DNA of 64,000 bases from Chitinophagaceae bacterium. Lineage in GTDB: Bacteria > Bacteroidota > Bacteroidia > Chitinophagales > Chitinophagaceae. A program made the position numbers and the translations under genes. Under the pieces are notes generated by a model. The model did no database searches. It was given only the letters and a program-made list of their open reading frames with translations, and was not told where the DNA came from. The stretch covers positions 62,001-126,000 of the forward strand of contig JANPZZ010000005.1 in the NCBI GenBank assembly GCA_024707305.1. The letters are read 5' to 3'. Shown piece after piece: positions 11,113-54,063 of the stretch (positions within the stretch are counted from its first letter, which is position 1; every line of letters starts with the position of its first letter).

Positions 11113-11536
11113 TTCCTTCCAGATGAACTGTAACTGTAATTACAAACTCTGGGTTATCTGTGTATCAATCCGTGTAAATCTGTGGGACATTTTTTCCGAT
11201 TATCAGGTTGATAGAAGCCGTGAGATGTTTCACACAGATTCACACGGATGAACCCACAGATTTACGCAGATATATGAACGAGGTTTGTTTCACCCACCCA
11301 CATTCCCACATTGTCACATTTACATATTTACACATTTCCACATTTTTCTCCCCTATCGTAGTTTCCACTACCCCCGATAAGTATTTGTTCGTAATCTGCT
11401 AAAAAACAGATATTTATTTCTTGCACAGGCAGGTTCCGCGTACTATTTTGGTCCCTGTAACCGTTTAACAAACGATTATCCTATAAACCACTATTTCTGG
11501 GTGAAAGCGCAGAAATAACATTTTAAAATCCGTACC
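11113..11536. other. 424-bp intergenic region between tamL and the L,D-transpeptidase-like gene
   Basis: No gene is credible here. The region holds an inverted-arm repeat (11156-11261) and, at about 11287-11346, a stretch made of repeated CACATT-like words. It then has AT-rich sequence that probably carries the promoter of the downstream gene. Confidence 0.7.
11156..11261. repeat. Inverted-arm element with AATCTGTG words, about 44-bp core
   Basis: Left arm 11156-11186 and the reverse complement of right arm 11231-11261 agree at 25 of 31 positions. Both contain the words ATCTGTG, ATCCGTGT and AATCTGTG. A further partial word (CAGATTTACGCAGAT) follows to 11270. The core is 11187-11230. Similar CACAGATT/CACGGAT strings are common in Bacteroidota intergenic DNA (general knowledge). 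Confidence 0.7.
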
Positions 11537-31351: not shown

Positions 31352-31538
31352 GATGATCGATGTCCGGTGACCGATGATCGATGATCGATGGTCGATGATC
31401 GATGATCGATGACCGATGACCGATGGTGGATGGTCGAAGTAAGTTTAATGCGGAGGTATACCGGTTCTGCACTGGGCAGGGGCAACTCTCATTTACAGCA
31501 TACCTCGATCATCCACCATCGATCATCGACCATCGATT
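31352..31538. repeat. CGATGATC-word inverted-arm element
   Basis: The stretch 31352-31437 is built of CGATGATC / CGATGACC / CGATGGTC words. Its last 34 bases (31404-31437) match the reverse complement of 31505-31538 at 29 positions. The core 31438-31504 contains its own GGTAT/ATACC ends. It lies between lysS and the DUF4197 gene. Confidence 0.75.
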
Positions 31539-32990: not shown

Positions 32991-34449
32991 ACAATGGCAA
33001 ATATTGCGCAGGCAACCCGGCTCGGCGTTATTTATCGTTTTGTATAAAACGATCATCCAGTTGCTACGTATGTTGTGGCCGTTGTTATTACTATGGTTCA
33101 TGCGTAAACCGGGAAATGAAGCGAAGATCGATCCCTGGGAAATTGGCGTTGGCGCCATCTCGATCGGCGTGTTCCTGCTTTCAATTCTGACATTTTACAC
33201 GTTCCGTTTTTGTATACAGGGCGAAGATCTTGTTGTAAAAAAAGGCGTGCTCGTGCGCCGCCAAATCATCATGCCACTACATCGGATTCAGGCGGTACAT
33301 GTGGAAGAAAACTGGTTACACCAGTTGCTGGATCTTGCGCAAATTTCACTTGATTCTCCCGGAACCGAAGAAACAGAAGTTCGTATCACGCTGCGCAAAC
33401 GCGATGCAGAATCGTTTCGGCAGTACATTGTGGGGCATGCACGCGTGAAGCAGGCGAGTGAAGCATCTGAATCAAATATAAAACCCAAAGAAGAAATTCT
33501 TTTCCAGCTTTCCACACCTGATTTGTTTAAACTGGGATTATCGGCCAACCATCTCGAGGCATTTTTTATCATGCTCGCTTTTGGTTTTTCAACACTTGAT
33601 AACCTGGAAAGGGCAATCAATGTTGAATTTAGCGGTGTGATGCGATGGCTCAGTGATAATGCAGCAAGTAGCACCGCTGCAGCATTATTGTTTGTTGCAA
33701 TTGCGATATTGATGTTGTCGATGGTTATTTCGATTATCAGGATCGTATTACAGTATGGTCGTTTTGTATTCAGTGAAGTGGATAAGGGTTACCGCATCCA
33801 GAGCGGGTTGATCAACTTAAAAGAGAAACTGATTCCGTTTAGAAAAGTACAGTATATATCGTGGAAGGCAAACTGGCTTCGTTCAAAACTGCCAATCTTC
33901 ATGTTGCATTTTCATGTGATCGGCGATGAGAACATGCGGAGGAAATGGACGATTAAAATACCGATTACACAACCGGAGTTTGTTGATAAACTGCTCACCT
34001 ATTATCATCCCCAACTGGATGCGGCTGCTGGTTACCTGCGTGTGCATCCCAAATACATCGTGCGGCGTGTGTTGCTGGCAGGGTTGCTGCCTGCGGCCTT
34101 ATTTTTTACGATTGGATATTTAAACTTTGGATGGATGGCATTATGGCTGTTGTTGTTGCCGATATATACGCTGATCGCAGCGTGGTTGTTTCAGCGTAAG
34201 TTTCGGCTTTATACTGATGCTGATGCGTTGCAGGTGCATCGTGGTGTTTTTGGGAAAGAGTATATTGTATTGCGTTGGGAGAATATTCAGTCTGTTGCGA
34301 TACGCCAGGGAATTTACCAGCGCCGGCATGGCCTGGCTACTTTACGTTTATATACCGCTGATAAATTTATCTCTATTCCTTTCATTCTCGTCGCCGATGC
34401 GGAGCAACTTCGCGATTATGCAATTGCGAAAATTGAATCGGGAAAATGA
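32983..34449 (+). CDS. Multi-PH-domain membrane protein (YdbT-like)
   Basis: About 488 residues, GTG start at 32983 overlapping the YdbS-like stop by 8 bases, which indicates translational coupling. It contains alternating membrane segment pairs and three bPH_2 domains (for example GEDLVVKKGVLVRRQIIMPLHRIQAV, then KGYRIQSGLINLKEKLIPFRKVQYI and ALQVHRGVFGKEYIVLRWENIQSV). The repeated pattern is a hydrophobic pair then a small beta domain ending in an R-Q motif. Function of the family is not settled. A partner of the previous protein is implied by the overlap. Confidence 0.8.
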   Translation: MPEQWQILRRQPGSALFIVLYKTIIQLLRMLWPLLLLWFMRKPGNEAKIDPWEIGVGAISIGVFLLSILTFYTFRFCIQGEDLVVKKGVLVRRQIIMPLHRIQAVHVEENWLHQLLDLAQISLDSPGTEETEVRITLRKRDAESFRQYIVGHARVKQASEASESNIKPKEEILFQLSTPDLFKLGLSANHLEAFFIMLAFGFSTLDNLERAINVEFSGVMRWLSDNAASSTAAALLFVAIAILMLSMVISIIRIVLQYGRFVFSEVDKGYRIQSGLINLKEKLIPFRKVQYISWKANWLRSKLPIFMLHFHVIGDENMRRKWTIKIPITQPEFVDKLLTYYHPQLDAAAGYLRVHPKYIVRRVLLAGLLPAALFFTIGYLNFGWMALWLLLLPIYTLIAAWLFQRKFRLYTDADALQVHRGVFGKEYIVLRWENIQSVAIRQGIYQRRHGLATLRLYTADKFISIPFILVADAEQLRDYAIAKIESGK

Positions 34450-34508
34450 CGGAATTTTCTGGTGAAAACAACGCGGATGCGTTTTGCGCTGTTCATAGTT
34501 TTGTTTCT

Positions 34509-34886
34509 ATGGAGCTCAATGATATTTCTCAAACAGTAATCGGTGCGGCAATTGAAATTCATAAACAGCTGGGTCCAGGTTTGTTGGAGTCTGTGTATGT
34601 TGCTACACTTACGTATGACCTGCAACTGTTGGGATTAAAAGCTGAAATGCAGGTGCCTTTGCCGGTTGTATATAAAGAGGTGCTAATGGAAGTGGGGTTT
34701 CGGGTTGATATTTTGGTGAATGATAAAGTGATTGTGGAAGTGAAGTCGGTTGAGGCGCTTGCGCCGGTACATTATTCGCAATTACTTACTTATCTGCGAT
34801 TAGCGGATAAAAGGTTGGGGTTATTGATAAATTTTAATAGCGATGTTTTGAAGAATGGAATTCATCGGGTGGTAAATAAGTTCTGA
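34509..34886 (+). CDS. GxxExxY-family protein (PD-(D/E)XK-like)
   Basis: About 125 residues from MELNDISQ. The name-giving motif is GPGLLESVY, and the nuclease-like core pattern is VDILVNDKVIVEVKSVE (D...ExK). The family is a predicted PD-(D/E)XK fold with no confirmed activity. An earlier ATG at 34446 overlaps the ydbT-like stop but adds 21 residues not typical of the family. A large repeat block with inverted arms starts 18 bases after its stop; in my experience such genes often sit beside this sort of repeat. Confidence 0.8.
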   Translation: MELNDISQTVIGAAIEIHKQLGPGLLESVYVATLTYDLQLLGLKAEMQVPLPVVYKEVLMEVGFRVDILVNDKVIVEVKSVEALAPVHYSQLLTYLRLADKRLGLLINFNSDVLKNGIHRVVNKF

Positions 34887-34904
34887 CGTATTGGATTCCC
34901 TTTA

Positions 34905-35732
34905 TTTTTTTCACGCAGCGTTTGCCGAGGGCTTACTAGAGTTGTCAAAGCTAGAGGGTGTCGTTATAGTTGAGGAGTGAGTGCAGGGTTTCCTTACTGG
35001 TCTTTTCACGCAGAGTTCGCCGAGGACCCGCGGAGTTCGCGGAGATTTTCATTAGCGTTATTGAACCGGAGAAATGTCGCTTGCAGAGAAATTCATCTCT
35101 TTTCTTAATATTTTTCATCATCTCAAAATATACCTGCAACAATATTTGCATAAAGGAAATCAGTTCGCTTTCACAACTCTGATAAGACCTCCGCGCACTC
35201 CGCGGGTCCTCAGCGCACTCTGCGTGAAAAAAAGCCAGTAGGGCAATTTACATTGTTCCTTTCAAAAAATATACTACAAAGGGTTCGTGGAGATTTTCAT
35301 TAGCGTTATTGAACCGGAGAAATGTCGCTTGCAGAGAAATTCATCTCTTTTCTTAATATTTTTTCATCATCTCAAAATATACCTGCAACAATATTTGCAT
35401 AAAGGAAATCAGTTCGCTTTCACAACTCTGATAAGACCTCCGCGCACTCCGCGGGTCCTCAGCGCACTCTGCGTGAAAAAAAGCCAGTAGGGCAATTTAC
35501 ATTGTTCCTTTCAAAAAATATACTACAAAGGGTTCGTGGAGATTTTCATTAGCGTTATTGAACCGGAGAAATGTCGATTGCAGAGGAATTCATCTCTTTC
35601 TTAATATTTTTTCATTATGTCAAAATATACCTGCAACAATATTTGCATAAAGGAAATCAGTTCACTTTCACAACTCTGATAAGACCTCCGCGCACTCCGC
35701 GGGTCCTCGGCGAACGCTGCGTGAAAAAAAAG
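34905..35732. repeat. Nested inverted-arm block with three 249-bp tandem copies
   Basis: Units begin at 35042, 35290 and 35539 (spacing 248 and 249). The first unit is preceded by the arm 35007-35044, which matches the reverse complement of 35189-35226 at 35 of 38 positions (words CGCAGAG, CGAGGACCCGCGGAG, CGCGGAG). The outermost strings, TTTTTTTCACGCAGCGTTTGCCGAGG at 34905-34930 split here as CACGCAGCG and TTTGCCGAGG, recur inverted at 35705-35732. Short open frames inside are products of the repeat and not genes. Confidence 0.85.
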
Positions 35733-35767
35733 TAGGGTAATTTACATTGTTCCTTTCAAAAAAGAAA

Positions 35768-36649
35768 CTACACAAACGAAAGCAACACCTGCCACGCATC
35801 TGCAACTTTTCCTTCATCTAAAAGTCGGGCAGCATGCAAATGCACCTCCCTTTCCATTTCCTCGGGATTGAGACTATAATATTGAACAATCTGCCGCAGG
35901 TGCGCATCATCATAAGAAGGATTTACTTCTGGAAGTGCATGCACATTAGCCAGCTGCCCCAGGTGATTGCCAGTTAATACGCTGCTGTTGCGGATTGAAG
36001 CCGGCAGCATATCCATCCCAATCCCCAATTGTGTATTGGGCTTCTCAACGCGGAACAAATTCCCGGGACTTACTTTACAATACCAGTCAGCACCCAAACG
36101 CGCCACATGTTGAATCTTCAGCTGGTCAGGCCGCCCTTTGTCATCAAGCAGCGAATCGTCGATATGCATGCGCAGTACTTCACAAATCACCAGATTTCCT
36201 GCGCCACCGTCCGTACCAAGAGGTTTCACCTCCAACACCCGGCATTCCAGCTTAGCCTTACTTTCCTTCACCATCGGCGGCTTTACGAGCGTAGCCGGCT
36301 CCTGCGTAAATCCTGCTTTGATAAACTCATTTACATCTTTAGGATACTCACAACTGGCAAGAGAAGTTTGCTGCACCATGTCGTACGTGACAATATTAAT
36401 CACCACTTCCGGCACTTCCAGCACATTCTCCAATGTGTGTTTATTGGTATTATTCCGCACCCTTCGCGAGGGAGAGAAAATAACAATCGGGGGATTGGAA
36501 GAAAACAGATTAAAAAAACTAAACGGACTTAGGTTTACATTCCCTTCCTTATCAATCGTAGAAGCAAAACATACCGGCCGCGGCGCCACCAGGTGCTGCA
36601 GAAAATATTGCCGGTCGGGAACGGATAGAAGACTACAGTCGATTGTCAT
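35768..36649 (-). CDS. Flavin reductase family protein
   Basis: 293 residues. The flavin-reductase-like split barrel covers residues 1-200 (APRPVCFASTIDKEGNVNLSPFSFFN; NPPIVIFSPS; VINIVTYDM), with a Bacteroidota-type C-terminal extension of about 90 helical residues. Such proteins bind FMN and reduce it with NAD(P)H, or act in aromatic-compound metabolism. In many relatives they lie with fumarylacetoacetate hydrolase genes, as here (next gene upstream on the same strand, 170 bases away). The substrate is not proven. Confidence 0.82.
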   Translation of the reverse strand: MTIDCSLLSVPDRQYFLQHLVAPRPVCFASTIDKEGNVNLSPFSFFNLFSSNPPIVIFSPSRRVRNNTNKHTLENVLEVPEVVINIVTYDMVQQTSLASCEYPKDVNEFIKAGFTQEPATLVKPPMVKESKAKLECRVLEVKPLGTDGGAGNLVICEVLRMHIDDSLLDDKGRPDQLKIQHVARLGADWYCKVSPGNLFRVEKPNTQLGIGMDMLPASIRNSSVLTGNHLGQLANVHALPEVNPSYDDAHLRQIVQYYSLNPEEMEREVHLHAARLLDEGKVADAWQVLLSFV

Positions 36650-53732: not shown

Positions 53733-54063
53733 ATCGATGATCGATGTCCGATGACCGATGATCGATGGATGTTATAACTATAGAGATGTCGATCCCGTAA
53801 ACGGAAGTGGTAACTCGCATTCGCAGCAATTATCGATGATCGATGTCCGATGACCGATGATCGATGGATGTTATAACTATATAGATGTCGATCCCGCAAA
53901 CGGAAGTGGTAACTCGCAGTCGCAGCAATTATCGATGATCGATGTCCGATGACCGATGATCGATGGATGTTATAACTATATAGATGTCGATCCCGTAAAC
54001 GGAAGTGGTAACTCGCATTCGCAGCAATTATCGATGATCGGTCATCGGACATCGATCATCGGT
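53733..54063. repeat. CGATGATC-word inverted-arm element with three 99-bp tandem units
   Basis: Units begin at 53733, 53832 and 53931 (spacing exactly 99), each a 36-base arm plus a 63-base core starting ATGTTATAACTATA. The final arm 54030-54063 is inverted and matches the reverse complement of 53733-53766 at 33 of 34 positions. Because 99 is a multiple of 3, the minus strand has an open frame of 107 codons that is a product of the repeat. Confidence 0.88.

Follow-up and report, generated by a model that had tools for sequence, protein, structure and literature searches.

Mirror-image, genome-scattered word strings around GxxExxY genes suggest an undescribed kind of spreading DNA element

By likeness, the nearest analogue of the elements described here appears to be the REPIN-RAYT system. 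REPINs are hairpin doublets that occur as several families per genome, each clustered beside its own enzyme gene, and REP sequences and REPINs also form tandem clusters that include flanking sequence (PMC3116915). GxxExxY genes and their arms resemble the REP/REPIN-RAYT (TnpA-REP) arrangement in their dispersed extragenic palindromes, hairpin-forming inverted doublets, enzyme-adjacent families and tandem clusters, and here too dispersed inverted doublets lie beside an enzyme gene of matching family. However, membership fails on the enzyme, which is predicted to be a PD-(D/E)XK nuclease and not a HUH/Y1 transposase; moreover, the GxxExxY arms are rows of a 7-nt word repeated at about one helical turn, the gene sits inside the arms, and the system is found in bacteria and in Methanosarcinales. 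Other known systems offer partial parallels. MITEs and insertion sequences likewise combine a gene between terminal inverted arms with gene-free relatives that carry the same ends, but a GxxExxY cassette consists of one gene, and no transposase of a known class was found. Free-standing homing endonuclease genes are also small nuclease genes with a patchy presence at a conserved site, whereas the target words of GxxExxY are numerous and dispersed and flank the gene on both sides. The intervening sequences of 23S rRNA (S23 / four-helix-bundle ORF) place a small ORF within inverted arms as well, but the protein is another one and so are the words (CTTAG or CTCAG type). The GxxExxY family itself is mentioned in passing in PMC8934634 and PMC12085832, the latter listing a GxxExxY protein (gene BQ1_072) in the genome of the algal virus CpV-BQ1, and PF13366 is mentioned in PMC9756366. 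In one open library, no description of a GxxExxY-arm system was found in the dispersed-palindrome literature, and six long arm strings did not occur in the library's papers.

The locus compared here with these systems belongs to a Chitinophagaceae bacterium (GCA_024707305.1, contig JANPZZ010000005.1, 62,001-126,000 of the forward strand); this whole stretch of 64,000 nucleotides, numbered 1-64,000, is referred to as the window. A GxxExxY gene for a protein of 146 aa, a member of the PD-(D/E)XK nuclease family by TIGR04256, PF13366 and an AlphaFold2 model, occupies 34446-34886 on the plus strand, and it is followed on its 3' side by two L arms, the first worn (34898-34930) and the second full (35003-35049), and then by three R arms (35184-35230, 35433-35479 and 35681-35727). 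The full arm consists of TTTTCAC followed by four words (the reverse complement of CTCNGCG) spaced 9, 11 and 9 bp from start to start, and it is complementary to the three R arms over 47 nt, at 89%, 89% and 91%, respectively. Tandem Repeats Finder reports an array at 35035-35772 (period 249, 3.0 copies, 96% matches, score 1357), in which each unit is a spacer plus one R arm. The initial annotation had seen much of this correctly from the letters alone, namely the three 249-bp tandem units, inner arms at 35007-35044 and 35189-35226 that match at 35 of 38 positions, inverted outer strings at 34905-34930 and 35705-35732 (25 of 26 for 34905-34930 and 35705-35730, extending to 33 nt at 88% as 34898-34930 and 35705-35737), and the end of the gene 18 bases before 34905. 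Its picture of two nested layers of inverted arms, with tandem growth inside the outer pair, did not hold: the outer left string is the worn L arm, a direct copy of the full one (22 of 26 identical to 35000-35025; 91% for 35003-35025 against 34898-34930), and the outer right string belongs to the R arm of unit 3. The arms at this locus are therefore one family in five copies, not two layers, and because each 249-bp unit carries one R arm, the arms were multiplied along with the unit and do not enclose the array. Folded as single-stranded DNA, 35000-35235 reaches -59.8 kcal/mol (z -10), a value that 0 of 200 shuffles match, and an Rfam search of 34400-36000 gave two matches, both far below the gathering score. 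Against our preferred reading, the window gene has arms on one side only: its 5' end overlaps the end of a bPH_2 gene and no arm lies on that side, and in the 120-bp flank test described below it has 0 R words 3' and 2 L-type words 5', inside the bPH_2 coding sequence. The window also contains two further arrays found by Tandem Repeats Finder, one at 53733-54040 (99-bp unit with ATCGATGATCG words, 3.1 copies) and one at 31352-31437 (7-bp unit GATGATC, 12.3 copies).

The arms are not confined to this locus. BLASTN with one 249-bp unit as query finds 164 matches at E up to 10 in the unit's own genome, an assembly of 3.86 Mb in 26 contigs, and the dispersed arm copies have spacers and array periods that vary between places. 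Among 20 other stretches of the genome, 19 taken for BLASTN matches and 1 for a second GxxExxY gene, 12 contain at least two arms in the same orientation, mostly spaced regularly, 140 to 460 bp from one to the next; with no more than two GxxExxY genes in the genome, such tandem growth is not peculiar to the one in the window. The stop codon of the second gene (locus L034, 2879-2881) stands at the start of a two-unit tandem of period 193, and its inverted arms are built of the words ATCTGTG, ATCTGCG and ATCCGTG. This second, ATC family is dispersed as well (96 BLASTN matches at E up to 10), and one of its copies lies in the window as a gene-free element at 11156-11271 (C7:73153-73271), with three R words at 11156-11184 followed by four L words at 11233-11271, which is the rarer polarity. 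The genome thus has two GxxExxY genes, two words and one architecture. An empty counterpart of the window's own site was not obtained among 20 loci of relatives compared around the flavin reductase, 3 of which contain a GxxExxY gene, the window's own and two at another place. In those two relatives (L280 and L285), no more than about 1.5 kb separates the gene from that flavin reductase, and its position differs from the one in the window.

The window protein scores 140.7 bits against TIGR04256 GxxExxY (cut-off 35) and 134.6 bits against PF13366 PDDEXK_3 (cut-off 22), in line with the family and the PD-(D/E)XK fold first proposed for it. Its AlphaFold2 model (pLDDT 91.9) is closest to the solved structure 4ic1 of SSO0001, which we take to be a Cas4 protein (Foldseek E 1.3e-3; VIA Z 8.9, rmsd 4.3 over 101), followed by 3ijm (Z 8.1), with Holliday-junction resolvases near Z 6 and other PD-(D/E)XK branches at Z 5 to 8; matches below Z 8 reflect common arrangements and leave room for unlisted families. 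The residues E48, D88, E98 and K100 are the same in every protein of two sets, one of 20 and one of 62, and Q112 and Y116 are invariant in the 20 and at least 90% conserved in the 62. A QxxxY motif after ExK is a mark of the RecB/Cas4 branch. By fold and by its D...ExK residues the protein is predicted to be a PD-(D/E)XK nuclease, apparently resembling the RecB/Cas4 branch; the family profile itself has no match among PDB sequences at E up to 10.

To place the locus among its relatives, the flanks of GxxExxY genes were compared across genomes. A profile search finds TIGR04256 in 152 of 296 Bacteroidota genomes, and one gene was taken from each of 80 of these 152, with up to 4 kb on each side. 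The typical architecture is a gene between inward-facing rows of a 7-nt word that varies by locus, captured by the pattern [AC]T[CT]NG[CT]G; a flank counts when at least two inward-facing words lie in its 120 bp, and other ORFs of the same loci, mechanical ATG frames, serve as controls. At least two R words are found 3' of the gene in 67 of 80 Bacteroidota loci (18/305 control ORFs), at least two L words 5' in 53/80 (12/305), and words on both sides in 48/80 (1/305), counts that are not blind, as the pattern was written after inspecting these flanks, and that come from the top of the list by score, where weak members are under-represented. With an inverted-alignment score that is independent of the pattern, 44 of the 80 genes and 4 of the 305 control ORFs lie above the 99th percentile of the controls. 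Because the pattern derived from these first loci, it was applied unchanged to a second set, obtained by scanning named genomes with one peptide pattern (80 loci, of which 3 with short flanks were dropped) and spanning Bacteroidota, Cyanobacteria, Acidobacteria, Planctomycetota, Chloroflexi, Nitrospiria, Proteobacteria, Methanosarcinales and others. There, R words follow the gene in 57/77 loci versus 15/338 controls, L words precede it in 43/77 versus 15/338, both sides carry words in 37/77 versus 1/338, and the pattern-free score passes the 99th percentile in 34/77 versus 4/338. No signal by any measure is seen at 6 of the 80 Bacteroidota genes and 12 of the 77 in the second set. GxxExxY genes in general therefore lie between such arms, and the enrichment near these genes that the initial annotation had made its test is found, measured against the flanks of other ORFs in those loci. 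One could still regard the window's array as an ordinary local minisatellite of no wider meaning, which by itself resembles a common tandem repeat; the dispersal of the arms and the flank, class and co-occurrence tests speak against that view, the 77-locus set contradicts it, and we give it practically no credence.

The words also sort with the proteins. Among 810 flank words of 162 genes, word positions 1, 3 and 6 agree within loci at 0.92, 0.80 and 0.82, compared with 0.77, 0.51 and 0.50 overall, and even the free fourth position agrees slightly (0.57 versus 0.50), with 0 of 500 shuffles as high in each case; of 540 steps from one word start to the next, 393 measure 8-11 nt. The L and R arms of a cassette are of the same class in 65 of the 80 cassettes, out of 160 loci, that have at least two words in both arms (shuffled mean 17.4). 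Arms more than 300 bp from a gene match the class of the gene in 64 of 96 cases, these being the arms, out of 107, whose gene has a class (shuffled mean 21.4; 0 of 5000 shuffles as high), so that gene and arm classes correspond even at a distance. Placed on a tree of the 162 proteins, a quick tree with many unresolved forks, the six word classes require 32 changes against a shuffled mean of 55 (0 of 200 as low), counted over the 100 proteins with a clear class and not over the other 62, which include the window's. Four of the classes cluster on the tree, but CTCNGCG, the class of the window arms (8 changes, shuffled 7.8), and ATCNGTG (5 changes, shuffled 4.9) do not, and the expectation that arm sequence would track the protein clade is thus upheld overall and fails for these two classes. 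One clade of 16 proteins (11 CTTNGCG, 2 CTCNGCG, 3 unlabelled) unites Flavobacterium, Nostoc, Pirellula, Acidobacteria, Nitrospiria and SAR324, and one of 11 (8 ATC, 3 unlabelled) includes the second gene of the window's genome. Overall, word class follows the protein tree. In addition, word position 3 correlates with residue 28 (r 0.67), position 1 with residue 32 (r 0.86) and position 6 with residue 143 (r 0.65), contrasts that are suggestive only, with many columns tried and at most 6 supported independent contrasts: C or T at position 6 goes with V or I at residue 143, and proteins whose word has A at position 1 tend to have R at residue 32. In the window protein, V143 fits its GCG words and S28 opposes the position-3 trend. 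A readable protein-DNA code may exist between these three residues and the word positions.

The relation extends to whole genomes. When a three-word arm pattern is counted in the 296 Bacteroidota genomes, the 152 with GxxExxY have a median of 14 arm hits and 96 of them reach at least 8, while the 144 without the gene have a median of 1 and only 5 reach at least 8 (Mann-Whitney p 1e-24); the reversed pattern gives means of 1.2 and 0.4. The difference persists within the 21 families that have both kinds of genome (Wilcoxon p 1.5e-4), and arm hits rise with the number of GxxExxY genes (rank correlation 0.67). Arm numbers thus depend on the GxxExxY gene, with exceptions on both sides: 32 of the 152 gene-bearing genomes have at most one hit, and among the five arm-rich genomes without the gene, one retains a 27-residue gene remnant followed by an arm, and the other four (G158, G045, G183 and G172; 11-47 hits) show neither gene nor remnant at E up to 1. 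G158 (loci L327-L330) has regular ATCTGCG arrays despite the lack of a detected GxxExxY gene. Outside Bacteroidota, all 18 genomes, picked for holding the gene, have 18 to 714 arm hits, and in the genome with 714 the reversed pattern also gives 90. One alternative is that the arms owe their spread to a Y1 transposase of the RAYT/TnpA-REP type, with GxxExxY as a passenger, for a Y1 gene is present in 210 of the 296 genomes, the window's included. Yet only 2 of the 79 genomes with Y1 and without GxxExxY reach 8 hits, and in partial rank correlations with arm hits, taken together with the TIGR02436 family (in 223/296 genomes), GxxExxY retains 0.51 while Y1 falls to 0.03 and TIGR02436 to 0.09. Once GxxExxY is counted, Y1 transposases add nothing to the prediction of arm numbers; Y1 is rejected as the main driver, and the passenger alternative is improbable. 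At least 8 hits are reached by 89/131 genomes with both genes against 7/21 with GxxExxY alone, so Y1 may have a helper effect, or a confounder such as genome size may be at work. TIGR02436 was considered as a partner of the same words and rejected, as 0 of 30 of its genes have at least two inward-facing GxxExxY words on either side, and 2 of 30 have at least two in some flank and orientation. These four-helix-bundle genes (L342-L371) have inverted flanks scoring above 27 in 13 of 30 cases, with different word rows (CTTAG or CTCAG type, TAGTACTTAGTATT type), and the family may have arms of its own. Finally, relatives of one query protein turn up in 8 of 72,556 plasmid records; with the sensitivity that a single query affords, plasmids do not seem to be the main route of spread.

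A site seen both with and without the cassette comes from Flavobacterium, where a search of 81 genomes for the gap beside one methyltransferase gene returned 30 loci. The gap contains a cassette A in 9 loci, a cassette B in 7 and only 2-30 bp in 10; of the rest, one has a truncated A gene with arm remains and one an unrelated longer gap. Another two (L305 and L308) hold an apparent L-arm remnant together with another repeat, palindromic, of CAAGGTTTTGAAAACCTTG type. The cassette B protein is 37-41% identical to that of cassette A, and the R arm before the methyltransferase starts with C words in 9 of 9 A loci and with ATTNGTG words in 7 of 7 B loci. Gene and arms are therefore gained and lost together at this site, and the word goes with the protein. 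No target-site duplication of the kind expected for insertion sequences or MITEs was recognised among the 30 loci, whose junctions are too diverged to show one clearly. One may argue that the arms owe their spread or upkeep to something else and that GxxExxY, like a homing endonuclease gene, inserts between an arm pair it recognises, since two distant cassettes occupy the same site in different Flavobacterium species and the gene sits between arms that also occur gene-free. However, the empty state, found in 10 of the 30 loci, offers no arm pair in which to land, the B cassettes bring their own word and not that of A, and genomes without the gene are poor in arms, which seem to need it. We consider such homing unlikely, if the strongest of the alternatives.

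The arms away from genes have a structure of their own. Among the 107 such arms, neighbours within 150 bp form 17 L-R pairs, 3 R-L pairs and 11 same-orientation pairs, and the loop is 3-27 nt long in 10 of the 17 L-R pairs; judging from these gene-free pairs, the cassette resembles a hairpin element whose loop contains a gene. Arm midpoints fall inside ORFs in 21 of 107 cases, in DNA of which ORFs cover 76%, and at cassettes the 3' arm is often close to the stop codon, with the first R word at a median of 10 nt. The extragenic location, the position shortly after the stop codon and the strong folding of L-R pairs would also suit arms that act as transcript hairpins, terminators or protein-bound operators, copied by ordinary recombination and kept for control of the gene or restraint of its nuclease. 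Such a regulatory or protective role would leave unexplained the hundreds of copies, the cross-phylum matching of class by lineage and the gain and loss of whole cassettes, and we rate it as unlikely, somewhat less probable than homing.

We favour the reading, at a probability of about 0.6, that GxxExxY genes and iterated-word arms form one genetic system, in which a nuclease is accompanied by word-built arms and gene-free hairpins, similar in plan to REPIN-RAYT and served by an unrelated enzyme. In this system, each protein lineage would be paired with a DNA word that fits [AC]T[CT]NG[CT]G, its class being given by positions 1, 3 and 6; an arm would be built from two to four such words in steps of about 8-12 bp, near one helical turn; and facing L and R arms would bound the gene, while gene-free inverted pairs of the same kind are scattered between genes. 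The initial annotation had suggested that the protein might act on such repeats. The relation between protein and arms is borne out by the enrichment at gene ends, the clustering of classes on the tree and the co-occurrence in genomes, and the action itself is what we infer: the protein probably binds its own words and may cut or process the hairpin or cruciform formed by an L-R pair. Such processing, followed by repair or copying, would spread cassettes and gene-free hairpins within a genome, and tandem units such as those in the window could be by-products of breaks or slippage at the arms. A gene between mirror-image, genome-scattered word strings suggests an undescribed kind of spreading DNA element. 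Whether GxxExxY nucleases drive a distinct class of mobile element in bacteria and archaea, made of cassettes and gene-free hairpins, with ends of one word per helical turn, a RecB/Cas4-like nuclease in place of any known transposase and a word proper to each lineage, is a bolder proposition, on which we stand evenly divided.

In summary, the proposed system offers a testable function for a widespread protein family, of which the literature searched makes only passing mention, and it may account for the CTCTGTG, CTTTGCG and ATCTGCG strings scattered between genes in several phyla. If true, dispersed palindromes would have become paired with enzymes at least twice independently, once with HUH and once with PD-(D/E)XK enzymes, and the many protein-word pairs would provide a natural series for the study of DNA specificity and of how populations of repeats persist in genomes.
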